From assembly GCA_016219275.1 (NCBI GenBank), contig JACRBM010000037.1:1-58400 (forward strand): a DNA stretch of 58,400 bases. The letters run 5' to 3'. Below, piece after piece: positions 5,215 through 20,274 of the stretch. Each line of letters starts with the position of its first letter. Position 1 is the first letter of the stretch. Position numbers and translations under genes: made by a program. The notes under the pieces are model-generated. The model was not told the DNA's origin and did not search any database. It worked only from the letters and a program-made list of their open reading frames with translations. This DNA is from Chloroflexota bacterium. Its GTDB lineage: Bacteria; Chloroflexota; Anaerolineae; UBA4142.

Positions 5215-5460
5215 TCAACCGCCAAAGTAGGGGTGTTGGATGCGCACGTCGTCTCCAGCGTTCAAGCGGATTTGATCGAACATGTCCGGTTTGATGACCA
5301 CGCCGTTGATGATAAAGACCAGGTAGCTCTTGCCGGTTTTTGCTTTGAGCGTTTTGATCATAGGATCATCCGCCAGTTTTTCCTCATACGCCGCGACCAG
5401 ATCGGACAGCGGCGCGCCCGGCGGAATATCGCAACCTGGCGACCCGATGAGAACTCGCAT
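5215..5460 (-). CDS. MoaD/ThiS-family sulfur carrier-like protein
   Basis: 81 residues ending in ...RIQHPYFGG. The C-terminal Gly-Gly is the hallmark of beta-grasp carriers that are adenylated and thiocarboxylated by an E1-like enzyme. The middle (SYLVFIINGVVIKPDMFDQI followed by RLNAGDDVRI) fits the ThiS/MoaD pattern. I start at ATG 5460, 8 bp after the stop of the E1-like gene, with AGAGGAAG upstream. As a partner of the adjacent ThiF/MoeB-like gene and a distant neighbour of the aldehyde:ferredoxin oxidoreductase, it probably supplies sulfur for the Mo/W pterin cofactor; a different thio-modification is possible. It is the last gene of the leftward operon. Confidence 0.75.
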   Translation of the reverse strand: MRVLIGSPGCDIPPGAPLSDLVAAYEEKLADDPMIKTLKAKTGKSYLVFIINGVVIKPDMFDQIRLNAGDDVRIQHPYFGG

Positions 5461-5468
5461 AGCTTCCT

Positions 5469-6227
5469 CTATTCGTACGTAGACATCGCGCAGACACAAT
5501 CTTTGGACGGTCCCTGCAAGGGAATGATCTCGAACTCGTTGCGCCATAGATCGAATTGGATCATTCCCTGCGCCAGGGACGTGTGGTTTCCGGACAGAAA
5601 CTTGAGCGCTTCGTTAGCGGCAAGCGTGGCGGCAAAAGTTGGAATGGTTCCGAGAATCCCGACGGTATCAAGCCAAGGGATATTGTCGCTGGGCTGGATA
5701 TTGGGGAAGAGACAACGTAAGCAGGGTGTACGTCCGGGAATCGTAAGCAACACAGTCCCTTTGCTTCCCAGCACGCCGCAGTGAATCCACGGCTTGCGCA
5801 ATCGAATGGCGGCGTCGTTAAGAATGAGCCGGGTCGCGATATTGTCCAAAGCATCGAGAATCAGGTCGGTGTCTGTCATCAGTTGATCGATGTTGCTCTG
5901 CGAAATTTCCAGCACCTCGGCTTGAATCTGAACTTGACTGTTCACCAATCGCAACTTGCGACCCGCCGCTTCCGCTTTGAAAGCGTTCTGTGCCACATCC
6001 TCCTCGTCGAAAAGAATCTGGCGGTGCAAGTTTCCCAGTTCCACACGATCGCGGTCAACCAGTCGCACGCGCCCCACTCCCGCGCGAACGAGCAGGTGCG
6101 CCAGGGTACTGCCGAGTGCGCCTACCCCGGCGATCAACACCGACGACGATCTCAGCCGCGCTTGCCCCTCCAGACCGAGACCGTGAAAAATGATCTGCTT
6201 TTTGTACCGGTCGTTCGCATCGCTCAC
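5469..6227 (-). CDS. ThiF/MoeB/HesA-type E1-like adenylyltransferase
   Basis: 252 residues. A Rossmann nucleotide-binding loop, GVGALGS, near residue 35 is followed by LVDRDRVELGNLHRQILF, the family's ATP-binding segment with conserved Asp and Arg, and by DALDNIATRLILND. Zinc-type cysteine pairs occur in TPCLRC and, near the C-terminus, in DCVC. The enzyme would adenylate the C-terminal Gly-Gly of the carrier encoded next door. I use GTG 6227 as start, with AAAGGTGAG just upstream and 11 nt after the previous stop; upstream codons in this frame merely overlap the preceding gene. Carrier plus E1 in an aldehyde:ferredoxin oxidoreductase operon points to tungsto- or molybdopterin biosynthesis. 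Confidence 0.85.
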   Translation of the reverse strand: MSDANDRYKKQIIFHGLGLEGQARLRSSSVLIAGVGALGSTLAHLLVRAGVGRVRLVDRDRVELGNLHRQILFDEEDVAQNAFKAEAAGRKLRLVNSQVQIQAEVLEISQSNIDQLMTDTDLILDALDNIATRLILNDAAIRLRKPWIHCGVLGSKGTVLLTIPGRTPCLRCLFPNIQPSDNIPWLDTVGILGTIPTFAATLAANEALKFLSGNHTSLAQGMIQFDLWRNEFEIIPLQGPSKDCVCAMSTYE

Positions 6228-6238
6228 GAACTCACCTT

Positions 6239-7498
6239 TCACGATTGGTGCAAGTTGCTCGCCGCAACGACTCCAATTCCCGCGCAAATCAAAGCATCTG
6301 CCGTCAAGTTCACCGAATCGTGTTTGTCTAAATAGTTTCTGAGAAGCGCCGGCATCAATCCTTTCGCTTCGACATCGGCTTTGGCGGCAAAATAATCCAG
6401 AATGTCCGATGGATGCTCGCGACATTTTTCGGTTTCGACTTCGCCGCCTTCGTGCTTCGCTGAGATGTTCGGCACGACCTTTGCCAGTTCCACCAATTCG
6501 TCCCGGCGATTGTACGGCTGCCGCACGATTGATTTCCAGGTTTCCGTGATGTGATGCTCGAAACGCACCTTGTCTTCCAAACCAAGCGCTCGTCTTAGTT
6601 TCGCAGACTGGATGATGGTGTCGTTGTTGACCGAGTTGGAAAGATTGAATCCGATGAGACTGGTTGTGTCGTCCTGCCGCGAAAATAGTTTGGCGGTCAT
6701 CAACGTCCACAACACCGAAAGCGGATTGTCGTTTCCCATGAACACGGAAATCTTGAACTCGATGTCCACACCTAACTTGTAAAGCAAGTATCCGGCGAGC
6801 ACCGTGCCGGGGTTGATGTTGAGGACTTGGCGCACGCCGTAGGTGGTGTAGTGATAGAGAAACTCGTCCACCCATTTGAAAGGATAGTCATTGGGCTGAC
6901 CAACTCCACCAAAGTAGCCGGTGATCGTGTCCGGTCCTCCCAGGTGGATATTGCTGCCATCGGTCCCCTTGGTATCCAGCGTTTCCACGTACGTCGCGCC
7001 GACGATCTGCACCGCCAGCGCGGTTGCCAGAATATCGCCATGGTCCTTGCGTTGCTCTTTCATGTTTCGCACACGGATGTAGCGACCGGGCATCAACTCG
7101 CGTTTTTCAATTGCTTGTTTGGCTTCGGCGATCAACCAGGGAAAATATTGCAGTGCGCTGATTTCCAGCGTCACGGCATTTTTTGTGTTGATTGCGGCAG
7201 GATTGATCCCACGACTCTGGTAGTAGTCGAACATGGAGATGAATGCTCCAGTGTCGCGCTGCGCGGCGAGCCATTCCAGATCAGCCACATAGGGCGATTG
7301 CATCTCTTTCAAACGCGCCATGAGATTTTCCGGCTTGCGCGCGTCGGCGGCTTTAGCGTTGATTGCCTGGGGTCCGCCATAGCGCTCTACGATTTCTAGC
7401 AGCCGGTTGACCGACTCGTTGTTCGGATCGGCGAGAACCGCATTCACTTCGACTAAACGTTCTTCTTCGATACGTACACGATCGCGCAAATTTTCCAT
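6239..7498 (-). CDS. Unrecognised 419-residue protein of the AOR operon
   Basis: I do not recognise a family. The start is ATG 7498 (MENLRDRVRIEEERLVEVNA), with a GAGGA 8 nt upstream; a TTG 15 bp earlier is less likely. There is no signal peptide or membrane segment, and the protein reads as a soluble enzyme. Candidate binding motifs are LGGPDTITGYFGGVGQP, LNINPGTVLAGYLLYKLGVD, VFMGNDNPLSVLWTLMTAK, a His pair in FEHHITETW, HEGGE, and SDILDYFAAKADVEA. The alternation of short hydrophobic strands with Gly/Asn/Asp turns would suit an alpha/beta (TIM-type) barrel, but this is only an impression. It lies between the E1-like gene and the PanB-family gene, so a carbon-chain or C1 reaction in the same pathway is a reasonable guess. 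Confidence 0.6.
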   Translation of the reverse strand: MENLRDRVRIEEERLVEVNAVLADPNNESVNRLLEIVERYGGPQAINAKAADARKPENLMARLKEMQSPYVADLEWLAAQRDTGAFISMFDYYQSRGINPAAINTKNAVTLEISALQYFPWLIAEAKQAIEKRELMPGRYIRVRNMKEQRKDHGDILATALAVQIVGATYVETLDTKGTDGSNIHLGGPDTITGYFGGVGQPNDYPFKWVDEFLYHYTTYGVRQVLNINPGTVLAGYLLYKLGVDIEFKISVFMGNDNPLSVLWTLMTAKLFSRQDDTTSLIGFNLSNSVNNDTIIQSAKLRRALGLEDKVRFEHHITETWKSIVRQPYNRRDELVELAKVVPNISAKHEGGEVETEKCREHPSDILDYFAAKADVEAKGLMPALLRNYLDKHDSVNLTADALICAGIGVVAASNLHQS

Positions 7499-7518
7499 TG
7501 AGTAATTCCTCAAGCCCT

Positions 7519-7601: not shown

Positions 7602-7610
7602 CAGTGCAGC

Positions 7611-8462
7611 TTATTTTTTCATACGTGCCATGAACTTGTCATGCTCGCCTTCGATCATGCGATAGCAGTGTTCCTCGCCGGGGAACGTGCCGGCGCGAAC
7701 ATCTTCGCAATATGCCTTCATCGCATTGGTGATCACCTCGGCGACGTTGCAATATTTCTTGACGAACTTGGGCGTGAATGCTTGGAACTGCCCGATCAGA
7801 TCGCTCACGATCAACAACTGCCCATCGCAATGCGGACCCGCGCCAATCGAGAGAACCGGGATCGTGAGCGTCTGGGTGATGTATGCGGTGACCTCCGGCG
7901 GCACAGCTTCCACCAGCAGCATCTTCGCGCCGGCTTTTTCGACGGCGAGCGCGTCTTCGACGACGAGTTGCGCGCTGTCCGCGGTGCGACCCTGCGCCTT
8001 GTGCCCGCCGAGTTGCCCGGAACTTTGCGGCGTCAACCCGATGTGTCCGATGACGACGATGCCGGCATTCGTGATCGCTTCGATTTGACGCGCCACGCGC
8101 ACGCCGCCTTCCAACTTGATCGCGTCCATCCCGGCTTCTTTGAAAAAGCGCCCAGCATTAAGGACGGCACCCTCGACCGAAACCTGGTAACTGAGAAACG
8201 GCATGTCGCCGATGACGAATGTGTTCGGCGCGCCGCGACGGACGGCTTCGCAGTGGACGATGCACTGATCCATCGTCACCGGCACGGTGCCCGAATAGCC
8301 GTAGACGCACATGCCGAGCGAATCGCCAACCAGGATCATGTCCATGCCCGCCGCTTCGGCGAACTGGGCGGTGGGATAATCGTAGGACGTGAGCCAGCAA
8401 ATTTTTTCGCCGGCTTGTTTCATGCGATAGAAATCGTGAATCATCAATTTTGTCTTTGCCAC
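7611..8462 (-). CDS. PanB-family (ketopantoate hydroxymethyltransferase-like) enzyme
   Basis: 283 residues of the PEP mutase/isocitrate lyase barrel superfamily. Hallmarks of 3-methyl-2-oxobutanoate hydroxymethyltransferase are present: TSYDYPTAQFAEAAGMDMIL, VGDSLG with the metal-binding Asp, IGDMPFLSY, IKLEGG, GHIGLTPQ, and EAVPPEV. The known reaction transfers a hydroxymethyl group from 5,10-methylene-THF to a 2-oxo acid and is reversible. I start at GTG 8462, which has AGGAGAG 6 nt upstream; an upstream TTG would make the repeat at 8476-8515 part of the protein. No panC or panD neighbour is present. The operon context suggests a catabolic aldol or retro-aldol role rather than pantothenate synthesis, though a housekeeping role cannot be excluded. 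Confidence 0.8.
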   Translation of the reverse strand: MAKTKLMIHDFYRMKQAGEKICWLTSYDYPTAQFAEAAGMDMILVGDSLGMCVYGYSGTVPVTMDQCIVHCEAVRRGAPNTFVIGDMPFLSYQVSVEGAVLNAGRFFKEAGMDAIKLEGGVRVARQIEAITNAGIVVIGHIGLTPQSSGQLGGHKAQGRTADSAQLVVEDALAVEKAGAKMLLVEAVPPEVTAYITQTLTIPVLSIGAGPHCDGQLLIVSDLIGQFQAFTPKFVKKYCNVAEVITNAMKAYCEDVRAGTFPGEEHCYRMIEGEHDKFMARMKK

Positions 8463-8475
8463 GAAAAGCTCTCCT

Positions 8476-8586
8476 GAAAATACGACCGCCGACGGCGGAC
8501 CGCCGACCGTCGCAAAGATTTTCATCTAATCGTTTTACGTTTTACGCTTCACGTTTTACGTTTCACGCATCACGTATCACGCATCA
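8476..8586. repeat. Two arrays of 7-bp tandem words
   Basis: 8531-8586 holds eight consecutive heptads (CGTTTTA, CGTTTTA, CGCTTCA, CGTTTTA, CGTTTCA, CGCATCA, CGTATCA, CGCATCA). About 8482-8510 holds GACCGCC, GACGGCG, GACCGCC, GACCGTC. Together they fill the gap between the AOR and PanB-family genes. Confidence 0.9.
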
Positions 8587-8589
8587 CTT

Positions 8590-10467
8590 TTATTCCGCGT
8601 ATGCTTGCATTCCCAATCGCTCGATCAATTCCTGGGTCGGCTTGCCTTCACTATCCCACTGCCGATGAGCGTAATAGTCGAGGATCGCTTGGTCCAAGCC
8701 CTCGGGTATTTTTCCTGCCGCCGGACCAGAATCCACTGGCTCCATGAATCGTTTTGGATAACTGAAATCGTCTGCCTTCTGCCACCCGTAGCGGATGTTG
8801 AGAATTTTCTGGAGTGTGGTGATGCGCTCGCCGCAATGGCGCAAGTCATCCTGGCTCCACTCGAGTCCGGTGGCAGAGTTGATTACGCCGAGCAGATCGG
8901 TCAGGTTGTAGGAGGCAAATTCCTGGAACTTGCAATGTACCGCTGAGTTGATCACGTTGCAGTAATCATGGAACTTGGCGTTGCGCTCCGCCGCCTTCTC
9001 CCAAGACCAGCGTTCCGCGTTCTCGACATGATCGATTCCCCATTCCGGCAGCATGATGTGACCGACCCAGATGTGCTGGCTGTTGCCGCGTTCGTGGTTG
9101 GGACCCGCCGCGACGCCGGTGCAATAATTCAGCGCGCTGATGTACTGCGCGCGCCAGTTGTGCGCGGCGATTTCTTGTCCCTTCATCGCCACCGCCCAGT
9201 CTTCGGATCCCTTGCCATAGTGCGCCGCGGCGGCTTGGCAACCCTCGCCCAGCCACCAGCCCAATCCTTCCGCGCGCTCGCCGATTTTCTTGACCATCTC
9301 GACCATCGCATCGGCGTTGCCCCAAGTCAGATCGATGCCATACGTATCTTCTTTCGTGAGAACACCCTTTTCGTACGATTCCATCGCCCAAGCGAGGACG
9401 CCGCCGAGACTGATCGTGTCCAAGGAATAGATGTTGGCTAACTCGCCTGCGTATGCCACGGCTTCTTGATTGGAGACCAAGAGGTTGAACCCCATCATCG
9501 CAAACGATTCGTACTCTGGTCCTTTACCCTTGTACGCATAAGGTCCCTCTAGCACCTCGCACTTGTTGTGACATTGGATCACGCAATAGCGGCAGGGCCA
9601 GGGTTTGGCGTTGAGTTTTTCCACGTATGGTCTGCCACCCAGGTTCGCCACGCCTTCCGGAAAATCGGCGAGCTGGTAATTCTTGATCGGCAGATTACCT
9701 TGCGGAGCAAACAATGCGGTTGCCATAGCCGTACCCAACCACGAGATCTGAAACTCTTTGGGTTTGAGCGATTGCTGATCCAACATGCGTTTGTGGAGGG
9801 CTTTGTTCAGTTCCTTGATTTTATCCAGATCGTGATATTCGCATTCCTGGGTTCCGTGTACGGCGATGGCTTTCAAATTCTTGGACCCCATGACCGCGCC
9901 CAAGCCGCAGCGTCCCAGGTACGATTTCTTGGCGGTCTGCACATTCGCATAACGCGCCAGTCGTTCCCCGGCGATCCCGGTGCTGGCGACTTCAAACTTG
10001 TCGCCTTCGGCTGCGCGGATAATGTCCTCCGCTTCGTAGGCATCCTTGCCCCAGATGTGCGCGGCGTCCTTGATCTCCGCGCCATCGTCGGAGACTTTGA
10101 TGTAGACCGGGCTTGCCGCTTTACCCGAAATCACCAGCGCATCAATACCGCACGCCTTCATCTCCATGCCCCAGGAGCCGGTCGCAGACGATTCGACGTT
10201 CATCTTGATCGCCGGACCGATCGCACCGGCGCTCCACTTGGCTGCACCGCTTTGCCGTGAACCGGATAGCGGACCCGCCGCCATGATCAACCGGTTTTCC
10301 GGATCGAACGGTCCCGTGCCGGCTTGGCACTCTTTCCAGAGGTAGTACGCGACGAGACCGCTCCCGCCCATAAAATATTGGTAGACTCCATCCGGCACAT
10401 TCTCGGTGTGACATTCACCTTTCGACAGGTCAACTTTCAAAACCTTGTGCCAAACACCTTTCATCAT
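8590..10467 (-). CDS. aor: Aldehyde:ferredoxin oxidoreductase (tungsten-type) family
   Basis: 625 residues, close to the roughly 605 of characterised AORs. It shows the N-terminal GSGLVAYYLW, the pterin-binding LGRCGLGAVMGSKNLKAIAV motif, and the [4Fe-4S] ligand set CxxCxxxC (CRYCVIQC, about residues 290-297) with a later Cys (AVHCKF, about 511). The family oxidises aldehydes to carboxylic acids with ferredoxin as acceptor and uses a tungsto-bispterin cofactor. I start at ATG 10467, with AGGAGG 7 nt upstream (a second ATG follows immediately). It shares an operon with a MoaD/ThiF pair, a ferredoxin-like protein and an importer. The exact substrate cannot be read from sequence; relatives include enzymes acting on benzoyl-CoA or hydroxylated acids. 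Confidence 0.9.
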   Translation of the reverse strand: MMKGVWHKVLKVDLSKGECHTENVPDGVYQYFMGGSGLVAYYLWKECQAGTGPFDPENRLIMAAGPLSGSRQSGAAKWSAGAIGPAIKMNVESSATGSWGMEMKACGIDALVISGKAASPVYIKVSDDGAEIKDAAHIWGKDAYEAEDIIRAAEGDKFEVASTGIAGERLARYANVQTAKKSYLGRCGLGAVMGSKNLKAIAVHGTQECEYHDLDKIKELNKALHKRMLDQQSLKPKEFQISWLGTAMATALFAPQGNLPIKNYQLADFPEGVANLGGRPYVEKLNAKPWPCRYCVIQCHNKCEVLEGPYAYKGKGPEYESFAMMGFNLLVSNQEAVAYAGELANIYSLDTISLGGVLAWAMESYEKGVLTKEDTYGIDLTWGNADAMVEMVKKIGERAEGLGWWLGEGCQAAAAHYGKGSEDWAVAMKGQEIAAHNWRAQYISALNYCTGVAAGPNHERGNSQHIWVGHIMLPEWGIDHVENAERWSWEKAAERNAKFHDYCNVINSAVHCKFQEFASYNLTDLLGVINSATGLEWSQDDLRHCGERITTLQKILNIRYGWQKADDFSYPKRFMEPVDSGPAAGKIPEGLDQAILDYYAHRQWDSEGKPTQELIERLGMQAYAE

Positions 10468-10487
10468 GGTTTTTCCTCCTTGAAAAA

Positions 10488-10562: not shown

Positions 10563-10961
10563 TTACGGGTCGGACAACTCAATAGGAACGTTGTCCAAGA
10601 TTCCGGATTTGATAAACGCGATTCGTTTTCCGCGCAGACCCAGGACTGGCTGTGGCGTCGCCATTTGCGCGCCTTTGCTTTGCAGATTCGCGATATCGGT
10701 TTCGATGTTATCCGACAGCAGACAGAAGTGATGAATGAAACTTCCGCGCTCGCCGACCATGCGCGCGACCGAACCATCCTTCGAGTAATCCTCGACCAAT
10801 TCGAGCATGGCTGCGCCCCAGGAAATCACGGCAACCCTCATGCTTCGGTCCGGCACATCCTTAATCGCCGGCATTTCGAGATCGAAAGTTTTGCAGAATG
10901 ACTCAACCGCCGCTTCGATATTCGTTACAAAAATGCCGATGTGTCCGATACCTTTGATCAT
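10563..10961 (-). CDS. VOC-superfamily protein, methylmalonyl-CoA epimerase-like
   Basis: 132 residues with paired beta-alpha-beta-beta-beta modules. The four expected metal ligands are His 7 (IGHIGIFV), Glu in AMLELVE, His in SFIHHFCL and Glu near the C-terminus (VPIELSDP). The HIGI...ELVE...HH...IEL layout is closest to methylmalonyl-CoA epimerase, which racemises the 2-carbon of a CoA thioester, but glyoxalase or dioxygenase-like activities share the fold. It lies 3 bp from the end of the permease gene region and is cotranscribed. If it is an epimerase, the pathway would pass through a branched acyl intermediate. Confidence 0.75.
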   Translation of the reverse strand: MIKGIGHIGIFVTNIEAAVESFCKTFDLEMPAIKDVPDRSMRVAVISWGAAMLELVEDYSKDGSVARMVGERGSFIHHFCLLSDNIETDIANLQSKGAQMATPQPVLGLRGKRIAFIKSGILDNVPIELSDP

Positions 10962-10964: not shown

Positions 10965-11807
10965 CTAATCCTGGGTCAATCTTCTAGAGCGAACGATAAG
11001 CACAAGCGCCATTACGATGAACACCATTGCGTTGGCTGCCTGCGACCAGAACCGCCCGGTGATCGCCATGACCATCCCCAGCGCCAGCGCGGCGATGAAC
11101 GTACCGTTGAGATTTCCCATGCCGCCGACGATCACCACCGCGAAGGCGAGGAGCAGAATATGAAAACCCATGTACGGTTCTGCGGACGAAATCGGCGCGT
11201 AGAGGATGCCGCCCAGAACCGCGAGCGCGCTGCCTAATACAAAAATGATGCTAAAGTACTTGTTCACGTCCAAACCCAGGCAGCGTACTCCATCGCTGTC
11301 CTCTAACGCGGCGATGACAATTTTGCCGATGATGGATCGTTTGAAGAAAAGCCGGAGCGCGAGAAACAATACCACCGCGCAGATAAAGATCGCGATCCGG
11401 TACACCGGCAGACCAAAATCAGCCACCTCAATCGAAATCCCAACCGGATCGTTGACCGGTTGCGAAGTCGTGCCCCAGAGCATTTTAATCGCGTCGGTGC
11501 CGATCAGCAAAACGCCATACGTCGCAATGATCGCATAATCCAGCCCTTCGCCGTACAAACGCCGAATGATAAATCGCTCGATGAGGTACGCCACCGGCAG
11601 CATGACGATCACACTTGCCGCCAGCGCGAGGAGGAAGGAATCGTCGAAAACTTTTAGAAACGCGATAAAGAGGTAGACGCCGACCGCGTACACCATGCCA
11701 TGCGCAAAGTTGATAATCCGCATCGTGCCGAAGGTGAGCGCAAGTCCAACGGAGAAAAAGTAAAGGATCGCGCCGATGGTGAATCCGTAAACGATCGTCT
11801 GAATCAT
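10965..11807 (-). CDS. livH: Branched-chain amino acid-type ABC permease (LivH family)
   Basis: 280 residues, almost entirely membrane helices. It carries the LivH signatures GFTIGAILYFFSVGLALTFG, MRIINFAHG, and a GGMGNLNGTFIAALALG loop. With LivM it forms the channel of a hydrophobic amino acid (HAAT) importer. ATG 11807 overlaps the LivM stop (ATGA), showing translational coupling; upstream codons in the frame merely overlap livM. HAAT systems also import amides, short carboxylates and aromatic acids, so the family does not fix the substrate. Confidence 0.9.
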   Translation of the reverse strand: MIQTIVYGFTIGAILYFFSVGLALTFGTMRIINFAHGMVYAVGVYLFIAFLKVFDDSFLLALAASVIVMLPVAYLIERFIIRRLYGEGLDYAIIATYGVLLIGTDAIKMLWGTTSQPVNDPVGISIEVADFGLPVYRIAIFICAVVLFLALRLFFKRSIIGKIVIAALEDSDGVRCLGLDVNKYFSIIFVLGSALAVLGGILYAPISSAEPYMGFHILLLAFAVVIVGGMGNLNGTFIAALALGMVMAITGRFWSQAANAMVFIVMALVLIVRSRRLTQD

Positions 11808-12847
11808 GGCGCGTTCCTTGCCACGCGAAAACGATAGTGCCATTGGGTGCGAATCACGCCGACCACACCTTTGCGCATCGCGAATACAATGATCAGTAGG
11901 ATGATGCCTAGCCACATTTCCCATTGCGGCAGTTTTACACCGACAACCTTCGACAATTCTGGGATCGCGACTGGCAAAAAGTTTTTGATGAGCATAAAGA
12001 TCGCGCCACCGATCAACGCGCCGTAGAGATTGCCCGCGCCGCCGATCAACACGGCGAAAATAACTTCCACATTTCCAAAGGGACTGATCACCTGGGGGCT
12101 GAGGAATCCGCGTACCAGCGTGAAGATACCGCCAGCGAGCGCGGCGAGCGTGGAACTGATGACGAAGACAATCCACTTGCTGCGGAACGTGTCGTATCCA
12201 AAAAACGCCACGCGCTTTTCGTTTTCTTTGATCGAACGCACGAGGATGCCGAACGGCGAAGTCGTCAACACTCGCAGAAATGCAAAAACCAGGAGCAGTA
12301 CGATCCCGACAAAGAGAAATGCCGACAAATCGTCGTTGAGATCAACGATCCCGAAAAGCTTTTCGGCGTTGCAAGACAATCCATCGTCGCCGCGCGTGAA
12401 CTTGGCAAGCGGCGACCGGATGATAAAGAATCCAATTTCGTTGAACGCCATGTTGATCAACGCGAACGATGCGCCGTGCGTCCGCATGACGATGAGACCC
12501 AGGACTGCCGACAAGATCGCCGCCACTGCAACGCCAACGAACAGCGCGGCAATCGGATTTTTTCCGGCATTGACGAGAAACAGCCCCGTGCCATACGCGC
12601 CAGCGCCATAGTATAACATGTGACCAAAACTGAGATGCCCCATGTACCCATAAAGCAAATCAAAGCTCAATACAATAATGAAGAAAATGATAAAGTCGGT
12701 GAGCCAGTGCAGTTTGATCGTTGTCGAGAGCAACAGGATACCAACGACGATGAGAGCTAACTCTCCAAAGATTTTCCAACGCGGAGGACGCGAAAGAGGC
12801 GAAAGGGAACGCGCAAGATGCGAAACAGCACGCAAGTCGGCAGGCAT
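11804..12847 (-). CDS. livM: Branched-chain amino acid-type ABC permease (LivM family)
   Basis: 347 residues, polytopic, second channel subunit. It shows DLLYGYMGHLSFGHMLYYGAGAYG-type family residues after a roughly 25-residue cytoplasmic N-terminus, and GGAGNLYGALIGG near residue 280. I start at ATG 12847, 2 bp after the stop of the LivF gene; an overlapping GTG is an alternative. Order livF-livM-livH with minimal spacing supports one transcript. Confidence 0.9.
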   Translation of the reverse strand: MPADLRAVSHLARSLSPLSRPPRWKIFGELALIVVGILLLSTTIKLHWLTDFIIFFIIVLSFDLLYGYMGHLSFGHMLYYGAGAYGTGLFLVNAGKNPIAALFVGVAVAAILSAVLGLIVMRTHGASFALINMAFNEIGFFIIRSPLAKFTRGDDGLSCNAEKLFGIVDLNDDLSAFLFVGIVLLLVFAFLRVLTTSPFGILVRSIKENEKRVAFFGYDTFRSKWIVFVISSTLAALAGGIFTLVRGFLSPQVISPFGNVEVIFAVLIGGAGNLYGALIGGAIFMLIKNFLPVAIPELSKVVGVKLPQWEMWLGIILLIIVFAMRKGVVGVIRTQWHYRFRVARNAP

Positions 12848-12849: not shown

Positions 12850-13539
12850 TCACAAGTACGTCTCCAATTGAGCTGAATCGACGATAGCGGCTCTGTCGGC
12901 GATTTCGCAAATGAGGTTGCCTTCCTTCATCACGTAGATGCGGTCTGCCAGCCGCTTGACGATTGACAGATTCTGCTCCACGATGATCGCAGAAACCGCG
13001 TTGCGCATGGAGCTTAGAATCCGGAAAATATCCTGGATCACAATTGCCGCCAAACCCTCGGTGGGTTCGTCAATCAACAAGACCTTGGGATCGCCGACCA
13101 GTGCACGACCAATCAACAAAATTTCGCGTTGCCCGCCGGACAAATTGCCCGCCGGCATGTCGCGGAATTCTTCGATCTTGGGGTAGAGCTGGGTGACCTT
13201 GCTCCACGCCTTGTCCATTGATTCACCCGCGCCGTATGCGGCAAGTTCGATGTTTGAACGTACGGACAATTCGCTGAATACTTTCTTGTCCTGCGCCACA
13301 AAGCGAAAACCCATGCGCGCTAATTTCTCCGGCGGTTGACCGGGGATGGACTGATCGTTGTACGTGATCGTCCCATTGATCGGCTTGAGCAAGCCGGCGA
13401 TGGTTTTGAGCAGCGTGGTTTTGCCCGCGCCGTTGCGCCCCACGATAAAAACCATCTCGCCGGGATTCAGGGTCAAGTTGAGATTGTGGATCACTCGGGC
13501 GTGACCATACGCGACACCCAGGTCACGGATTTGCAGCAC
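12850..13539 (-). CDS. livF: ABC transporter ATPase (LivF family)
   Basis: 229 residues. Walker A GRNGAGKTT (about 37-45), signature LSGGQRE, Walker B VLLIDEP followed by TEGLA, and the H-loop replaced by a Gln (IIVEQNLSIV), as is normal in LivF. It starts at GTG 13539 with GGAGGAG 4 nt upstream, 1 bp after the LivG stop. It powers the LivHM channel together with LivG. Confidence 0.92.
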   Translation of the reverse strand: MLQIRDLGVAYGHARVIHNLNLTLNPGEMVFIVGRNGAGKTTLLKTIAGLLKPINGTITYNDQSIPGQPPEKLARMGFRFVAQDKKVFSELSVRSNIELAAYGAGESMDKAWSKVTQLYPKIEEFRDMPAGNLSGGQREILLIGRALVGDPKVLLIDEPTEGLAAIVIQDIFRILSSMRNAVSAIIVEQNLSIVKRLADRIYVMKEGNLICEIADRAAIVDSAQLETYL

Positions 13540-13540
13540 G

Positions 13541-14296
13541 TTACTCCTCCTTGCCCCAATAACATTCTCGAACTTGCGGGTCGCGCAGCACGACATCGGG
13601 TACGCCATCGCAAATGAGCCGACCCTCATTCATCACAACTAATCGTTCGACCAAATCCACGATCTTGGAAATCTTGTGTTCGATGATCACGACCGTGCGT
13701 TCGGTCTTGATGCGCTGAATCAGCGCGGCGACTTGCGCGATCTCGTGATCGCTCAACCCAGCGAGCGGTTCATCCAACAACAGCAAGCGCGGTTTCAGCG
13801 AGAGGACGACCGCAATCTCCAACATGCGCTTGTCGCCGTACGAAAGTTCGGCGACGCTCGCGTTTGCTTTGTCGGTGAGTCCCACCCAGTCAAGTGCCTG
13901 TGCGCAACTTTCCAGAATTTTGGTGCGCTGCGCCGAACGGAAAAAGAAACGCGGCGGCGACATTTCCGCGCGTTGAAAGCGGACGTTCGTTAGCACCAAG
14001 TTTTCCCACACCGTCAGCGAGGTGAACACCGAAACCAATTGAAAAGTTCGACCGACACCCAGTTTGACGCGCTCGTGAGGCGCAATGCGTGTGATGTCGC
14101 GCCCCTCGAAAGCAATTGCACCATCGGATGGAGGAAAATATCCGGAGAGCAGATTGAACAGCGTCGTTTTGCCAGACCCATTAGGTCCGATTATGCCGGA
14201 GGTTTGCCCTTCGTGAACACCAAAATCAACTTGGTTGACAGCCGTCAAGCCATTAAAGCGTTTGGTCAGTTTCTGAGTGGCGATCAGCGCGTTCAT
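13541..14296 (-). CDS. livG: ABC transporter ATPase (LivG family)
   Basis: 251 residues. Walker A GPNGSGKTT, Q-loop GRTFQLVSVF, a diverged signature LSYGDKRMLE, Walker B LLLLDEP with LAGLS, and a His switch (VVIIEHKI). LivG proteins typically read LSYGQQR, so Q to D is a mild deviation. It starts at ATG 14296 behind a GACGAGAAG site; in-frame codons upstream would translate the adjacent palindromic repeat. Confidence 0.9.
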   Translation of the reverse strand: MNALIATQKLTKRFNGLTAVNQVDFGVHEGQTSGIIGPNGSGKTTLFNLLSGYFPPSDGAIAFEGRDITRIAPHERVKLGVGRTFQLVSVFTSLTVWENLVLTNVRFQRAEMSPPRFFFRSAQRTKILESCAQALDWVGLTDKANASVAELSYGDKRMLEIAVVLSLKPRLLLLDEPLAGLSDHEIAQVAALIQRIKTERTVVIIEHKISKIVDLVERLVVMNEGRLICDGVPDVVLRDPQVRECYWGKEE

Positions 14297-14313
14297 ATCT
14301 TCTCGTCGGGGAG

Positions 14314-14346
14314 AGACCCTAAGGGTTTCCAAAACCCTTAGGGTCT
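14314..14346. repeat. Palindromic repeat (AGACCCTAAGGGTTT family)
   Basis: A perfect 15-bp stem around a 3-nt loop, in the gap between the binding-protein gene and livG. It could also attenuate transcription between the abundant binding protein and the rest of the operon. Confidence 0.85.
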
Positions 14347-14353: not shown

Positions 14354-15733
14354 CTAGTATCCCATCGCGCTCAACGGCGGGACGAACGCATCGCCGCTGT
14401 ACACATCAACGATCTTGGCAAAGTCGAACTTGGCATCGTAGCGATCGCTCTTGCGCTCGGCTGCCCCTTTGCCCGCGACGATCCAGGTCGAATATTTGTA
14501 GACGACTGCGCCGTCTTTGCGCCACTTGGCTGGACCTTTCGCACCTTTCCAATCTGGGTTATCCATCAGCGCGGCATACATCTTGTCCGGGTCGGTGGAC
14601 TTGGACAGTTCCATCGCGCGTGCGATTTCCATGACGCCGTAGTACGTGCTCATCGCGTACGGATCCGGCGGCTCTTTCCGACCTTGCATCCATTTCGTGA
14701 CAAATTCTTCGGACGCTTTGACCACATCGGCGTCGCTGAATCCGCGCATGTCATGGTACCAGAACATCTGACCCTTGACGCCTTCCATCGCGTTTGCCGG
14801 GATGCCAGTCGCAAACGCGTTCATCAACCAAAAGTGGAACAGCGGGGCTTTTTTGCCCGCGCCCATTTCCAGGGCTTGCTTGAGGGCGTTGACCGCATCC
14901 GCGCCCCACGATCCGACGAACACCACATCGGGTTTGTATTCAAGCGATTTGATGAGATAGCTTGTCAAGTCCGGGCTATTGACCGGATGCCAGATCGTCG
15001 TAAACTCGACGCCTTTGCGATCCTTCATCACCGCTTCAAAACCCTTCATCGTACCCTGACCGATCGAATAGTCGGGCATAAAGTTGGCGATGCGCTTGGC
15101 TTTCATTTGGTCAACCATGTAAGCAGCCGCGCCACGTCCTGCCCATTCCGATGCGGCGACGATGCAGAGCGATGTGGGGGCTTTGACCTCTTTCTTGAAA
15201 AAGTCTTCGGGCACACCGTTGGTGGCGATGAACAAGGTCTTGGTCTTTTTGACTTCTTCATTGAGCGCGACCGAGATATTCCCCATCGAGCCGGCGACGA
15301 GCGCGGTGGCTTTCTGGTCTTTGACGATTTCGTTAAAGCGCGCCACTGCGACTTGGGGATTGGATTCGTCGTCGCGGAACACGCCTTCGATCTTCATCTT
15401 GACGCCGCCGATGTTGATGCCGCCGTTCTTGTTGATTTCGTCAATCGCCATCTTCGCGCCTTCCATTTGACCGGTGCCGATGGCAGCGCCCGATCCGGTG
15501 AGAGAGTACATCGCGCCGATCTTGACCGTCCCGGCAGGTGGGGGCGGCGCGGTGGGCGCAGTCGTCGGTGCGGCTGTCGCCGCAATCGTCGGCGCACTAG
15601 TGGGCTTGACTGCTGGGACAGGTGTGTTTGGAACAGGGGTGGGAGCCGGGGTAGGTGTTGCGGCGCAAGCTGACAATACGAACAAAATTGTCATTAATAC
15701 GATCATTCCGACAAGTCGTTTCGTGGTACTCAT
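14354..15733 (-). CDS. Periplasmic-binding lipoprotein of the ABC importer (LivJ/K-like)
   Basis: 459 residues. The signal peptide ends in lipobox LSAC (Cys at about 23), followed by a roughly 45-residue Ala/Pro/Thr linker (TPTPAPTPVPNTPVPAVKP and so on). Then comes a type I periplasmic-binding fold starting GTVKIGAMYSLTGSGAAIG with MEGAKMAIDEINKNGGINI. The linker after the lipid anchor is typical of Chloroflexota. ATG 15733 has AAGGAGG upstream. It should deliver the substrate of the operon to LivHMGF. The size and fold leave the ligand open: amino acids, amides and organic acids are all bound by relatives. Confidence 0.9.
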   Translation of the reverse strand: MSTTKRLVGMIVLMTILFVLSACAATPTPAPTPVPNTPVPAVKPTSAPTIAATAAPTTAPTAPPPPAGTVKIGAMYSLTGSGAAIGTGQMEGAKMAIDEINKNGGINIGGVKMKIEGVFRDDESNPQVAVARFNEIVKDQKATALVAGSMGNISVALNEEVKKTKTLFIATNGVPEDFFKKEVKAPTSLCIVAASEWAGRGAAAYMVDQMKAKRIANFMPDYSIGQGTMKGFEAVMKDRKGVEFTTIWHPVNSPDLTSYLIKSLEYKPDVVFVGSWGADAVNALKQALEMGAGKKAPLFHFWLMNAFATGIPANAMEGVKGQMFWYHDMRGFSDADVVKASEEFVTKWMQGRKEPPDPYAMSTYYGVMEIARAMELSKSTDPDKMYAALMDNPDWKGAKGPAKWRKDGAVVYKYSTWIVAGKGAAERKSDRYDAKFDFAKIVDVYSGDAFVPPLSAMGY

Positions 15734-15821: not shown

Positions 15822-16334
15822 TTACAAATCGTTCCTGAACTCCATAAGACCGGTGACCTCGCTCTTTTTCTTTTTGACGTTCGAGTTCTTGACGTTGGCG
15901 ATAAAGATTTCGGTTGTGGTGAAAACCTTGGCAGCGACCATGTGCCCGCCGGTCAGTTCGCCTTTGCCGTGGGACAAGAGACAGTGGATGTGCAGCACCG
16001 AGTCGCCGTGCTTCAGGTTGCCAAATTCACCCACCAGGGGAACGATGTTGCCTTCGACGCTCATCAGTTCAAACGGACCCTTCATCTCGATTCGGTTCAG
16101 GTTCTCCGCTGGAATGACCGGAATCGAGAACGCCGGCTTGGGCGCGACAAAGACCACATCTTCGAGACTGCCGATGCCGGAAATGATCGCCGCGCGCTCC
16201 CAGCCCTGGTCTTTGACGGTTTTGGTCAGCATCTGAAACAGATCATCGCCGGGCTGAAAACGGGTGAGAATTACATCGCTCAGGTCAACCTGCTCGATGA
16301 ATCGTGGATCAGCATGGGAATTGTTGTCACTCAT
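15822..16334 (-). CDS. PPC-domain (DUF296) protein
   Basis: 170 residues. The core runs from RFQPGDDLFQMLTKTVKDQG to VLHIHCLLSHGKGELTGGHM and carries the PPC/DUF296 signature, including the H-x-H pair and GGH that bind a metal in bacterial trimeric members. It is a stand-alone domain without an AT-hook, so it is probably not a plant-type DNA-binding protein. The C-terminus is Lys-rich (SNVKKKKSEV). GGAGGAG lies 11 nt before ATG 16334. Its place between the aldehyde dehydrogenase and binding-protein genes suggests an accessory or enzymatic role in the pathway; none is established. Confidence 0.8.
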   Translation of the reverse strand: MSDNNSHADPRFIEQVDLSDVILTRFQPGDDLFQMLTKTVKDQGWERAAIISGIGSLEDVVFVAPKPAFSIPVIPAENLNRIEMKGPFELMSVEGNIVPLVGEFGNLKHGDSVLHIHCLLSHGKGELTGGHMVAAKVFTTTEIFIANVKNSNVKKKKSEVTGLMEFRNDL

Positions 16335-16470: not shown

Positions 16471-17967
16471 TTAGTAACCCAGGTTGACGGTGACGCTTTT
16501 GCGCTGAGTGAAACCCTCGAGCATGCCTTCCAGCGACCACTCGCGTCCGATACCGCTCTGTTTGAAACCGCCATACGAGTTGCCGGGGACGATGCCGCCG
16601 CCCTGGTTGACCTGCACGAAACCTGATTCGATTTGGTGAGCGGTGCGCAGCGCTTTGGAAATATCGTGAGTGTAGATGAACGCCGCCAAGCCATAGTGAC
16701 TGTCGTTCGCCATCCGAATGACCTCGGCTTCGTCTTTCCAGGGGATGACGACGAGGACGGGACCAAAAATCTCTTCTCGAACGATCCGCCAGTCATTCTG
16801 CACACCAACAAAAACCGTCGGTTCGACAAAGTACCCTTCCGTGAACGGCAATGTTTTTGGCGGCATCCCACCGCACACGGCTTTTGCGCCCGGTTGTTCG
16901 AGACCATCGGCGATATAGTCCAAGATGGTGTTGTACTGATTTTCGTTGACGATAGCGCCCACCTGGGTCGTGTCATCCAGCGGCTCGCCGATTTTGAACG
17001 CGCGCAGTTTGGTCACGAGCTTTTCGATGAAAGAATCAAAGATGGATTCGTGCAGGTAAAGCCGAGTGCCAGCGGTGCAGGACTGTCCTTGACGCACGAC
17101 GCGCATACCGTTGATCACGTTTGCAACCGTGGCATCATCGTTGGCGTCCGCAAAAACAATCTGCGGACTTTTTCCGCCGAGTTCGAGCGAGACCGGGATG
17201 ATGCGCTCCGTCGCCGCGCGCATGACGTTTCTGCCGACTTCCGTCGAGCCGGTGAAGGTCAGCTTGGCGATCATCGGATGATGGATCAGCGCTTCGCCAC
17301 ATTCGGAACCACTGCCGGTAACGATATTGAGAACACCTTTGGGCAGAAAGCGTTGGCAGAGTTCGACCAGTTTGATCGTCGCGAGAGGCGCTTCTACAGA
17401 TGGTTTGAGAACGAGGGTGTTGCCGGGCGTGATTGCCATCGAGATTTTCAGCGCGCCCAGCGCCAGTGGCGCATTCCAGGGAACGATCCCGCCCACAACT
17501 CCCAGGGGTTCGCGGCGCGAATAACTAAAGAGTTGCTCACCGAGCGGGAGAACTTCGCCTTTGATCTCGCTGGCAACGCCGCCAAAGTAGCGAAAGATGT
17601 CCGCCGTCTGCATCGTCTCATTGCGCGACTGGGTGGCGATGGCGTTGCCCGTTTCAATCGAATACAATCGAGCGAAATCTTCCTTGCAGCTTTCAATCGC
17701 GTCGGCGATCTTGAGCAGTGCTTTGCCGCGTTCGCGCGCAGGGGTGTTTTTCCAGCCGGGGAAGGCATCGGCGGCGGCTTTAACGGCTTGATCAACTTCG
17801 GCGGCACCGGCTTTGGGAACTTGCCCGGCGGCGGTTCCTTTGTGTGCCGGATTCTCAACGGAGAGCCACTTGCCGCTCGCGGCTTCCACGGATTCTCCGT
17901 TGATGATCATCTTGACTTGACCGACACCGTGCTGCCAGTCCGATACGGGTTGGATTGGTTCAATCAT
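16471..17967 (-). CDS. NAD(P)-dependent aldehyde dehydrogenase
   Basis: 498 residues, typical ALDH length. Key residues: catalytic Cys in GQSCTAGTR (about 295), general base Glu in LELGGKSP (about 261), cofactor segment FTGSTEVG, PWNAP with Asn, and EEIFGPVL. It oxidises an aldehyde to the carboxylate; no CoA-acylating subtype features are evident. It starts at ATG 17967 with CTGGAGG upstream. Together with the AOR it gives the operon two aldehyde-oxidising routes, one reducing NAD(P)+ and one reducing ferredoxin. Confidence 0.93.
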   Translation of the reverse strand: MIEPIQPVSDWQHGVGQVKMIINGESVEAASGKWLSVENPAHKGTAAGQVPKAGAAEVDQAVKAAADAFPGWKNTPARERGKALLKIADAIESCKEDFARLYSIETGNAIATQSRNETMQTADIFRYFGGVASEIKGEVLPLGEQLFSYSRREPLGVVGGIVPWNAPLALGALKISMAITPGNTLVLKPSVEAPLATIKLVELCQRFLPKGVLNIVTGSGSECGEALIHHPMIAKLTFTGSTEVGRNVMRAATERIIPVSLELGGKSPQIVFADANDDATVANVINGMRVVRQGQSCTAGTRLYLHESIFDSFIEKLVTKLRAFKIGEPLDDTTQVGAIVNENQYNTILDYIADGLEQPGAKAVCGGMPPKTLPFTEGYFVEPTVFVGVQNDWRIVREEIFGPVLVVIPWKDEAEVIRMANDSHYGLAAFIYTHDISKALRTAHQIESGFVQVNQGGGIVPGNSYGGFKQSGIGREWSLEGMLEGFTQRKSVTVNLGY

Positions 17968-18038: not shown

Positions 18039-18051
18039 GTCTTATTGATTC

Positions 18052-18669
18052 TTAAACAAGTTTCGCAAGCAATCGTTCGGCGCGCTTGGGATTGAAAATG
18101 CCGCACAAACACGGCGCAGCAATTTCAGCAGCGGCAGCGGCGCAGGTCTTTTTCCCTTTTCGAATTAGCTTGACATTTTCGAGGACGAGGTTCGCGGCGA
18201 CGAGTCCATGCCCGCACATGGTGGTGATTTCCAAAATTGGGTCCGGGGCGAGTTGGTCTGTCTTGCCCAAAATGCCGCCGGAGTATTCGACGGTGTGCAT
18301 CGGCAGTCCTGACTTTTGGCACGCCGCTTGTGTGTCGTCGAAGAGACCCGTAATCACCACCGAGAGTCCCAGGTCGGCGGCTTGAAGGTCTTCCAGAACG
18401 CGAATCACGGTCTCTTTATCGGGGAAGACATAATGGAGTACGGAGGTGTCTTGAAAGCCGGCGCGGATGCTTTCAAAATCGGAATTGTATAGACTGCCGG
18501 TCTTGACATCGCCGCAGTTGACATGAGGATGCTTTGCTAAAAGCTCGAACATCTTGCGTTTGGTTTCGGCGGAACCTTTGTGCGTAATGCCGGTCGCCGC
18601 CATTGCGAGGAGAACGTGATCGTCACTCAGATCATGCGCCTCGCCTTTGCGGTGCAGTGTGTGAGTCAC
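18052..18669 (-). CDS. Unrecognised Cys-containing protein of the AOR operon
   Basis: 205 residues, no recognised family. It opens with SDDHVLLAMAATGITHKGSA, has mixed alpha/beta character (GLSVVITGLFDDTQAACQKSG), and ends in a cysteine-rich part: ITTMCGHGLV, KKTCAAAAAEIAAPCLCGIF, NPKRAERLL. The CGHG and PCLCG elements could bind an Fe-S cluster or metal. The stop of the upstream ferredoxin-like gene is 6 bp before its start, so the two are almost certainly cotranslated and may form one electron-transfer unit. Confidence 0.6.
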   Translation of the reverse strand: MTHTLHRKGEAHDLSDDHVLLAMAATGITHKGSAETKRKMFELLAKHPHVNCGDVKTGSLYNSDFESIRAGFQDTSVLHYVFPDKETVIRVLEDLQAADLGLSVVITGLFDDTQAACQKSGLPMHTVEYSGGILGKTDQLAPDPILEITTMCGHGLVAANLVLENVKLIRKGKKTCAAAAAEIAAPCLCGIFNPKRAERLLAKLV

Positions 18670-18675
18670 TGTGGA

Positions 18676-19428
18676 TTATCCTTGTTGTGGATTCTTAAAC
18701 AGAGGGCGTCCCAGTCCAACGTTTGTCTTGCCGGCAAGCGATGGCTCAAAGCCGGCTTCTTTCATCGCATCGCGCGCGGGGATCTTCCCATCAGGAGTTA
18801 CCTTGCCGATCACATCCAGACTAAACACTGTGTCTATTTCCTCGGCAAGTTCTTTGACTGTCTGGAATACGCGCTCGGCGTTCTCTAATGGCACGATGCC
18901 TTCGACAATTGCCGAGAGAACTTTTTCTTCCCGCACTTCGGGTTTCAGCGCACCCGTCTTCGGATCGGCGATCAATTGAGTGAGGGGATTCTTTGGCTCG
19001 AGCACAAAACCCAAGGGCAACAGGCGCTTGAACGCTTTTTCGGTTTCCTTTAATCTACATCCCAGCGCCGGTCGCCCGAACTCCAATCCGATCCCGATAT
19101 AGCCATCCCAAAAGCGACCAGTGACTTCGTTCGTTTTCATCTCCTCCGTACCCCTGCCCGGAATATCGGTGCCGGGGTGGGAGAACCATGGATCGCTGAA
19201 GAGCTGCCGCAAAACTCGCGGATATGGCAGAGTATCACGCACAATCGCGTTTGTGGCGCATAACTTCGCCCGATAGCACGCGCCACATTCAACACATTCG
19301 TCGCTCACGATGATGGCGTGTGCGTCAATCCCCTGGGCTTTATCTCTCTTGAAGGCGATGATCGCACTCACTGGGCAATAGGGAATGCACTTGGCGCATC
19401 CTTTGCATTTTTCCTGATCGATGAACAT
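18676..19428 (-). CDS. Ferredoxin-like protein with two [4Fe-4S] sites and a C-terminal extension
   Basis: 250 residues. The first cluster motif is CKGCAKCIPYCP (about residues 8-19); the second is CVECGACYRAKLC. A roughly 180-residue extension that I do not recognise follows (EFGRPALGCRLKETEKAFKR, then GKVTPDGKIPARDAMKEAG). I start at ATG 19428 behind GGGGAG; a TTG 21 bp upstream is less likely. It would accept electrons from the AOR or pass them on; the C-terminal domain may dock it to its partner or to the Cys-rich protein encoded 6 bp downstream. Confidence 0.75.
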   Translation of the reverse strand: MFIDQEKCKGCAKCIPYCPVSAIIAFKRDKAQGIDAHAIIVSDECVECGACYRAKLCATNAIVRDTLPYPRVLRQLFSDPWFSHPGTDIPGRGTEEMKTNEVTGRFWDGYIGIGLEFGRPALGCRLKETEKAFKRLLPLGFVLEPKNPLTQLIADPKTGALKPEVREEKVLSAIVEGIVPLENAERVFQTVKELAEEIDTVFSLDVIGKVTPDGKIPARDAMKEAGFEPSLAGKTNVGLGRPLFKNPQQG

Positions 19429-19453
19429 TGTTCTCCCCGAATGACTCAATCTG

Positions 19454-20209
19454 TTACTTGGCTTTTGCTCGTTCTTTAGGAGATTGTTGTGCGAGGTCTT
19501 TCTTCATCGCCGCGCCGTAATAGCGTTCGATTGCCTCTTGCACTTCTAGGATGTGGCGGGTCATTTCCTTGATTGCCTTTTCCCGATCCCTGTATTTGAT
19601 CGCTTGATAGATTCGCCGATGCGCGGTCAAGGATCGCTCGGACATGCCGGGAAGGACGCTGAAGGATTCCGTAATGAACTGATCCATGGAATTGCGAACA
19701 TCGGTAAATACATTGGCAATGAAATGATTGTTGGATGCCTCCGCAATGAGATGATGGAAAGCGGTATCCTTTGCGATATATTCGGTGAGGTTGTTACTCT
19801 TGATCGCGTCAGACATTTCCTCGACCAGGTCTCCCATCTGTTGGATTTGGGCGTCAGTCGCTTTTTGGACCGCCAACTCCACCATCCCGACTTCGATGAA
19901 TCGGCGCGCCTCGATCAGTTCTCGCGTTCCTGCCGCATCGGAGACCAGAGGGAGGGCAAAGCGATTGGGCGGCATTTCAGGAACTTGCCGCCGCAGCACA
20001 GTTCCTATTCCCGGCGCCTGCTCGATCACACCCATCAGAGCAAGAGTGTGGAACGCTTCGCGCAAACAGGGGCGGCTAACACCCAGTTTGGCGGCGAGTT
20101 CGTACTGATTGGGCAACTTGTCACCCACTTTCAGCTCGCCGCTTTCCATCATGCGCCGGATCTCGTCAATGACCCCATCGGCCAAGTTTTTTTTGACAAC
20201 GCGTCCCAA
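19454..20209 (-). CDS. FadR-subfamily GntR transcriptional regulator
   Basis: 251 residues. An N-terminal winged HTH (KLPNQYELAAKLGVSRPCLR followed by EAFHTLALMGVIEQAPGIGT) precedes a C-terminal FCD ligand-binding domain with the usual acidic/His residues (DTAFHHLIAEASNNHF, LTAHRRIYQAIKYRDREKA). FCD domains typically sense carboxylates such as lactate, gluconate or fatty acyl-CoA. The start is TTG 20209 with an AGGTG site. It is the first gene of the operon, and a GntR-type palindrome overlaps the likely transcription start, so it should repress its own operon until the substrate is present. Confidence 0.88.
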   Translation of the reverse strand: MGRVVKKNLADGVIDEIRRMMESGELKVGDKLPNQYELAAKLGVSRPCLREAFHTLALMGVIEQAPGIGTVLRRQVPEMPPNRFALPLVSDAAGTRELIEARRFIEVGMVELAVQKATDAQIQQMGDLVEEMSDAIKSNNLTEYIAKDTAFHHLIAEASNNHFIANVFTDVRNSMDQFITESFSVLPGMSERSLTAHRRIYQAIKYRDREKAIKEMTRHILEVQEAIERYYGAAMKKDLAQQSPKERAKAK

Positions 20210-20235
20210 TTGGAAACACCTCTTTCTTCTCTACT

Positions 20236-20246
20236 TTGTAATACAA
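20236..20246. promoter_or_regulatory. GntR-type operator palindrome
   Basis: TTGTAATACAA, a perfect inverted repeat (TTGTA-N-TACAA) matching the general GntR/FadR operator layout. It lies directly downstream of, and touching, the -10 box of the operon promoter, where binding would block initiation. Confidence 0.65.
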
Positions 20247-20274
20247 TCATACCATCATATCATCTGTTTGTCAA
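20246..20274 (-). promoter_or_regulatory. Consensus sigma70 promoter of the AOR operon
   Basis: On the minus strand TTGACA (20269-20274), a 17-nt spacer, TATGAT (20246-20251). This is a near-perfect match, positioned about 40-65 bp upstream of the regulator gene. Confidence 0.85.

Follow-up and report, generated by a model that had tools for sequence, protein, structure and literature searches.

The 58,400-nucleotide stretch of DNA analysed here (hereafter the window), which derives from a bacterium of the Chloroflexota, carries a run of 16 minus-strand genes between positions 5215 and 20209, as revealed by open reading frame (ORF) and profile searches. Along this strand, the run reads GntR/FCD, Fdx, U205, aldehyde dehydrogenase (ALDH), PCC, binding lipoprotein, LivG, LivF, LivM, LivH, VOC, aldehyde:ferredoxin oxidoreductase (AOR), PanB, U419, ThiF and MoaD, and every intergenic gap is shorter than 140 bp. 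It is bordered on the left by a convergent lipoprotein-like gene (3413-4477, plus strand) and on the right by a divergent diphosphomevalonate-decarboxylase-like gene starting at 20619 (plus strand), so that the unit is sharply delimited. The parts listed in the original prediction, made by a model from the letters alone (MoaD/ThiF-like proteins, AOR, ALDH, PanB, VOC, LivFGHM with its lipoprotein, a ferredoxin, two unrecognised proteins and GntR), are all present in this same-strand run; its count of fifteen genes has to be raised to 16, the PCC/DUF296 gene at 15822-16334 having been overlooked. We consider it almost certain that the 16 genes form one functional operon, whose features are the following.

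20246..20274, minus strand: promoter TTGACA-17-TATGAT (11 of 12 consensus bases, TG ahead of the -10 box)
20236..20246, minus strand: putative operator TTGTATTACAA (FCD-type TNGTNNNACNA; motif common to 7 of 7 upstream regions)
19454..20209, minus strand: GntR regulator with an FCD domain for ligand sensing, at the head of the unit (Pfam GntR 4.1e-15, FCD 1.1e-29)
18676..19428, minus strand: Fdx, N-terminal two-[4Fe-4S] ferredoxin domain (Pfam Fer4) and unrecognised C-terminal domain
18052..18669, minus strand: U205, unrecognised 205-aa protein with three invariant Cys (TMCGHG, CxCG; alignment of homologues)
16471..17967, minus strand: NAD(P)-type ALDH (Aldedh 1.1e-156)
15822..16334, minus strand: PCC/DUF296 domain protein (PF03479 8.2e-22)
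14354..15733, minus strand: binding lipoprotein (Peripla_BP_6 1.1e-54; nearest PDB entry 3i09, 9.7e-17)
13541..14332, minus strand: LivG-type ATPase (ABC_tran 7.6e-32 and BCA_ABC_TP_C)
12850..13629, minus strand: LivF-type ATPase (ABC_tran 3.8e-33)
11804..12847, minus strand: LivM-type permease (BPD_transp_2 1.5e-40; start inferred, the longest ORF running from 12910)
10965..11813, minus strand: LivH-type permease (BPD_transp_2 1.3e-31)
10563..10961, minus strand: VOC/glyoxalase-fold protein (Glyoxalase_4 1.9e-12)
8590..10476, minus strand: AOR/WOR large subunit of a distinct subfamily (AFOR_N and AFOR_C)
7611..8525, minus strand: PanB-family hydroxymethyltransferase, subfamily here called PanB2 (TIGR00222, 321 bits, cut-off 207.55)
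6239..7498, minus strand: U419, unrecognised 419-aa protein with predicted N-terminal helices and TIM barrel (AlphaFold2 (AF2), Foldseek and VIA)
5469..6224, minus strand: ThiF/MoeB-type adenylyltransferase (ThiF 1.4e-69 on a longer ORF)
5215..5457, minus strand: putative MoaD/ThiS-like sulfur carrier with C-terminal Gly-Gly (weak ThiS match, below cut-off)

The strongest evidence for a single unit is its conservation. The operon recurs, with 78-96% identity, in two further genomes of the family to which the window genome belongs (loci L029/L062 and L030), and the same order is found in five genomes of Desulfobacterota (L160, L161, L162, L191 and L192), the copies L162, L192 and L030 ending at contig edges. 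The shared order is GntR, Fdx, U205, ALDH, PCC, binding protein, LivGFMH, in some copies VOC, then AOR, PanB and U419, together with MoaD and sometimes ThiF. MoaD is present in each copy that extends that far, but in Desulfobacterota it lies between AOR and PanB; VOC or ThiF is absent from some copies, VOC not being found in the L161 and L191 operons. Between the two phyla, most enzymes and transporters are 64-86% identical, with values of 73-86% for ALDH, PCC and the binding protein, 69-72% for AOR, 66-80% for PanB and 65-70% for U419; the values are lower for GntR, Fdx and U205 (about 47-66%), VOC and MoaD (about 45-49%) and ThiF (40%). The recurrence of the gene order in two other Chloroflexota and five Desulfobacterota genomes indicates that the arrangement is not due to chance, and the gene set, which the original prediction had expected to be kept together elsewhere, is indeed recovered in the same order in two phyla.

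The copies are well conserved in these two phyla and yet sparse, which suggests that the operon has spread by horizontal transfer. U205 is detected at more than 50% identity in only 1 of 301 genomes sampled from the phylum, namely that of the window, and in 4 of 291 genomes of the Desulfobacterota class. In a tree of U419, the three Chloroflexota operon copies are nested in a mostly Desulfobacterota/Spirochaetota clade, apart from the native Chloroflexota copies, of which one native-type representative is also retained by the window genome.

The head of the operon points to a common control. The feature delimited by the original prediction ends, at 20274, on the -35 box of the promoter. A motif, TTGTNNNACAA, lies 33-57 bp upstream of GntR in all seven operon upstream regions examined (two of which, L162 and L192, are nearly identical to each other there), for a chance expectation of 0.009 per 260 bp, and it sits in each of them at the -10 box or just behind it. 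We take such a motif and placement to be the pattern expected for FCD regulators. In the whole 6.16-Mb genome, the operon head is the only place where the combined promoter and operator pattern is matched exactly, and the GntR orthologues leading the operon copies elsewhere are 47-88% identical. A scan with Rfam yielded only three tRNAs, so that none of the known riboswitch families is represented at the head of the operon. With one promoter, a conserved FCD-type operator and an order kept in two phyla, the proposal that the whole set is placed under one GntR-type regulator appears well supported at the sequence level.

The window PanB resembles known PanB enzymes (TIGR00222; PDB 1m3u, 1oy0, 1o66) in that it scores above the family cut-off and keeps all seven catalytic and metal residues checked (D45, S46, D84, K112, E114, H136 and E181, E. 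coli numbers), and these residues are intact in 68 of 68 members of its subfamily. This set nevertheless differs from canonical PanB at about 40 near-fixed positions and is linked to U419 or Fdx-U205, so that, judged by its sequence, the window PanB belongs to a separate subfamily, PanB2. The window genome has two PanB genes, on the window contig and on contig C41, each with a U419 neighbour, and two FTHFS genes. PanC (PF02569) was not found in this 97.9% complete genome, where a loss in assembly gaps is possible, and PanB would thus not serve canonical pantothenate synthesis here. The PanB annotation may consequently mislead the reconstruction of the pantothenate pathway in this group, and a panB annotation may, in many cases, stand for a gene that does not serve vitamin synthesis.

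U419 matches nothing in Pfam, NCBIfam or PDB by sequence; 581 relatives were matched in one scan of a genome collection. In 68 of the 80 best loci of these relatives, U419 is adjoined by PanB, an association on which the original prediction was silent and which spans Desulfobacterota, Spirochaetota, Bipolaricaulota, Planctomycetota, Myxococcota and others. Most PanBs of these 80 loci are 62-80% identical to the window PanB; those beside native Chloroflexota U419 are only 42-49% identical to it. Outside the operon, PanB2-U419 or U419 alone is flanked by an Lrp-type regulator and a Glu/Leu-dehydrogenase-like gene, or lies near an aminotransferase, FTHFS and a MetF-like gene, a 2-oxoacid oxidoreductase or a glutamine-synthetase-like gene, all recognised by eye, the last of these at four loci of Bipolaricaulota, Atribacterota and Desulfobacterales (L100, L133, L143 and L147). 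Such neighbours place the PanB2-U419 pair where 2-oxo acids meet folate-bound one-carbon (C1) units. A search of plasmids gave one U419 match, from Polaromonas, adjoining an SDR-like frame (by eye).

The AF2 model of U419 has a pLDDT of 89.3, only the strongly conserved loop 176-199 being uncertain, and U419 is confidently predicted to be a TIM barrel. The top Foldseek match of the model is a class II fructose-bisphosphate aldolase (E 3e-5, TM-score 0.35-0.43), and VIA aligns it with ThiC (Z 13.3, rmsd 4.3, 259 residues aligned), cis-epoxysuccinate hydrolase (Z 12.6, rmsd 3.5, 218 aligned) and glutamate mutase (Z 12.3). As many barrels fall within about one Z unit, U419 is not placed in any one family. 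A relationship to D-lysine 5,6-aminomutase (KamD, the alpha subunit of a B12/PLP aminomutase), suggested by a motif noticed by eye, was rejected: against true KamD of the phylum, hhalign gave a probability below 1% and local alignment was no better than with shuffled sequences.

A second constant gene pair, likewise not remarked before, is Fdx-U205. Fdx adjoins U205 in the loci read, and the pair recurs in varied catabolic clusters, with 8-10 copies in the single genomes G145 and G538, where it belongs to several different clusters (L067, L069, L070, L072, L074, L075 and L195-L199). Its neighbours in these and other genomes, recognised by eye, are tripartite carboxylate transporters, MmgE/PrpD-like, amidase-like, amidohydrolase-like and FAH-like genes, as well as beta-hydroxyacid-dehydrogenase-like, CooS-like and NADH-oxidoreductase-like genes. 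It is possible that Fdx-U205 represents a new enzyme family with many substrates. Eight Cys of Fdx (8, 11, 14, 18, 45, 48, 51 and 57) are invariant in 15 homologues. U205 has no match in Pfam or PDB and none above cut-off in NCBIfam, and neither protein reaches the cut-off of an NCBIfam reductase model; a search of plasmids gave no match for either. The AlphaFold model of U205 alone, made without an alignment, is unusable (pLDDT 46.5). In enzymes of the aconitase type and in reductive dehydratases, three Cys bind a cluster in which one iron stays open, and, by analogy, those of U205 could do the same. In two loci, U205 is fused to an extra multi-cluster ferredoxin domain (L066:129-1367 and L068:3745-4980), a flavoprotein-like gene adjoining in L066. 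We also considered whether the pair might be a 6-hydroxynicotinate reductase divided over two genes, an enzyme whose proteobacterial and Eubacterium barkeri forms are alike (PMC3511419). This idea was dropped as unsupported; the search covered NCBIfam, where no model of that name was matched.

Two further Desulfobacterota clusters (L193 and L194) contain PCC, PanB2, Fdx-U205 and a beta-hydroxyacid-dehydrogenase-like gene together, and one of them also has the same AOR and MoaD, its PanB frame being incomplete. U419 was not found in the genomes of these clusters. The operon therefore unites two modules, PanB2-U419 and PCC-PanB2-Fdx-U205-AOR-MoaD.

The window AOR has both AFOR domains over cut-off (219 bits for the N and 325.8 bits for the C domain) and keeps the ligands C288, C291, C295 and C494 of the Pyrococcus furiosus enzyme as well as its active-site residues E313 and H448. 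It resembles the tungsten AOR/WOR enzymes in these respects, and also by the MoaD-like gene nearby, since such a gene beside AOR is known from Aromatoleum (PMC6365974). It is however at most 35% identical to Pyrococcus AOR and 24-35% identical to seven further AORs of the same genome with which it was compared, and its operon company is new; on sequence criteria, it is a subfamily of its own. Ten AOR-family matches were counted in all in the window genome. Classes II and III of WORs have an extra four-cluster S subunit (class scheme in PMC13328260). The sole ferredoxin gene of the operon has two clusters and is paired with U205, and the window AOR may accordingly be a class I WOR. WorX, an accessory protein of class I WORs, is predicted to act in pterin synthesis (PMC13328260).

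Concerning the other enzymes, the best NCBIfam match of ALDH, betaine-aldehyde dehydrogenase, falls below cut-off, and PCC, 79-93% identical across operons, is among the most conserved genes. VOC, which had been described as epimerase-like, scores 69.7 bits against the methylmalonyl-CoA epimerase model TIGR03081, for a cut-off of 114.95, which amounts to a distant likeness only.

The importer is a full HAAT (LivFGHM) set with two ATPases, two permeases and a Peripla_BP_6 lipoprotein. The true start of LivF is probably later than the one listed, as its relatives align from residue 22-30. In the leucine-binding protein LivK, the amino group of the ligand is held by a glutamate; this acidic residue is not conserved in the operon binding protein, as far as a weak pairwise alignment (E about 1e-12) can be read, and the latter would thereby differ from known HAAT importers. 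An amino-acid-like substrate, as envisaged in the original prediction, is thus no more than a possibility.

The sequences show a single unit, how far it is conserved and where it is regulated; the order of reactions and the type of substrate proposed below are inferred. The importer, the two aldehyde-oxidising enzymes and the FCD regulator argue that the operon imports and breaks down a small acid, and a catabolic function is, on these grounds, very probable. The FCD protein would repress the operon until the substrate arrives. The compound taken up by the ABC importer would be small and polar, either an acid or an amide, and is unlikely to be an ordinary alpha-amino acid. The Fdx-U205 iron-sulfur pair, with PCC, would then carry out a redox or dehydration step, an assignment which we consider conceivable, with some doubt. 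AOR, with ferredoxin, and ALDH, with NAD, would oxidise aldehyde intermediates, and MoaD/ThiF would help to build the AOR cofactor. The chain would end in a 4-hydroxy-2-oxo acid, which PanB2 would split by retro-aldol hydroxymethyl transfer to tetrahydrofolate, yielding a shorter 2-oxo acid and 5,10-methylene-tetrahydrofolate for C1 metabolism. U419, the TIM-barrel enzyme paired with PanB2, would act at the same 2-oxo-acid node. The C1-folate and 2-oxo-acid neighbours, the intact catalytic residues and the failure to find PanC all draw PanB2 away from vitamin synthesis. They also lend plausibility, short of proof, to the (retro-)aldol role envisaged in the original prediction, and PanB2 may work in this direction, a slightly less than even prospect in our view. 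The logic is close to C1 release by serine hydroxymethyltransferase, where a hydroxymethyl group also passes to tetrahydrofolate and a shorter acid is left, except that PanB2 is of another enzyme family and that its direction is here a proposal. It also loosely recalls the anaerobic nicotinate pathway of E. barkeri, which has a step linked to ferredoxin, intermediates at the aldehyde level and a C-C cleavage towards its end; none of the enzymes of that pathway is identified by sequence in the operon, in a comparison that did not extend to the E. barkeri reductase.

Taken as a whole, a substrate-induced, horizontally spread operon of anaerobes with a retro-aldol end is our best explanation, and we would place it not far below an even chance. 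Several observations weigh against it. In the tree, the U419 proteins from the operons of Chloroflexota and Desulfobacterota fail to group as a single clade (3 changes, of which at least 2 are forced), so that U419 may have joined the operon, been swapped or been lost more than once, and VOC and ThiF are not constant members of the operon, as seen above. PanB2-U419 is far commoner without importer or AOR than within the full operon, and the pair may therefore have an anabolic or housekeeping role. Finally, the direction of the PanB2 reaction is not apparent from sequence.

The neighbours of this common form could be accounted for if PanB2 and U419 worked in the building direction, joining methylene-tetrahydrofolate and pyruvate or another 2-oxo acid into a 4-hydroxy-2-oxo acid, which amino-acid dehydrogenases or aminotransferases would convert into an amino acid, for instance homoserine; the operon would then use the pair for a mixed purpose. 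In favour of this, many genomes, of Desulfobacterota and of other groups, have Lrp, amino-acid dehydrogenase, aminotransferase or FTHFS/MetF-like genes near PanB2-U419 or U419 alone, but the importer and the two aldehyde-oxidising enzymes under an FCD regulator point to breakdown and the window operon has no amino-acid enzyme, which makes this alternative unlikely. The breakdown of pantothenate, pantoate or pantolactone, in which imported vitamin B5 or its pantoyl part would be oxidised to ketopantoate, to be cleaved by PanB2 into 2-oxoisovalerate and methylene-tetrahydrofolate, relies on the enzyme with the surest reaction type in the operon, which the failure to find PanC frees from canonical synthesis. 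Two genes recognised by eye are in line with it, one PanE/ApbA-like and adjoining an Fdx-U205 pair in L199, the other encoding a class-III aminotransferase close to the L193 cluster. It is nevertheless quite unlikely, as the window operon has no pantothenase, amidohydrolase or pantoate dehydrogenase, PanB2 departs from canonical PanB at the positions mentioned above, and AOR and U419 would be left unexplained.

The amidohydrolases, amidases, nitrilase-like gene and FdrA/DUF1116-type genes found by eye near Fdx-U205 pairs elsewhere raise another possibility, the breakdown of an N-heterocycle or cyclic amide following the logic of anaerobic nicotinate fermentation. Fdx-U205 would be a ferredoxin-dependent reductase of a ring or C=C bond, the opened ring would yield a semialdehyde for ALDH and AOR, and PanB2 would remove the extra carbon. 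The window operon has no ring-opening hydrolase, however, the pair reaches no NCBIfam reductase model, as noted above, and other Fdx-U205 pairs lie near sugar-acid genes instead; we therefore see little probability in it. That unrelated units merely share one strand could be argued from the gaps of 64-136 bp between some genes and from weak promoter-like matches within the run (15 in all, against 9.8 expected). The colinear order in two phyla and the single conserved operator at the head make such an accidental neighbourhood highly improbable.

Apart from U419, U205 and the C-terminal domain of Fdx, the operon is made of known enzyme classes throughout. No description of the gene set was found in the open-access literature (searched for PanB with AOR, 4-hydroxy-2-oxobutanoate with PanB, and pantothenate catabolism), and neither were the combination, the PanB and AOR subfamilies or the U419 and Fdx-U205 families found described there, in agreement with the earlier statement that no described pathway has this set. 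All this suggests an undescribed metabolic pathway, and it is possible that the PanB2 route is a chemistry not seen in nature before. In the most far-reaching version, which we regard as speculative and rather unlikely, PanB2-U419 would be a widespread and so far unrecognised C1-transfer route of anaerobes, splitting or making 4-hydroxy-2-oxo acids against tetrahydrofolate, joined here with the new iron-sulfur complex Fdx-U205 for life on a compound whose anaerobic degradation is not known; the pair would then be the 2-oxo-acid equivalent of serine hydroxymethyltransferase. More generally, a set of odd neighbours becomes a defined, testable pathway unit common to two phyla, which provides a functional setting for U419 and its many relatives and for the Fdx-U205 pair, and a pathway context for one AOR subfamily, where a role is reported to be known for only 5 of the 92 clades of WORs (PMC13328260).

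Outside the operon, the plus-strand gene at 3413-4477 encodes a putative lipoprotein combining SnoaL-like and DJ-1/PfpI domains and, farther downstream, positions 213-3227 of the minus strand are taken up by a large gene that, by eye, resembles regulators of the BTAD/ATPase type.

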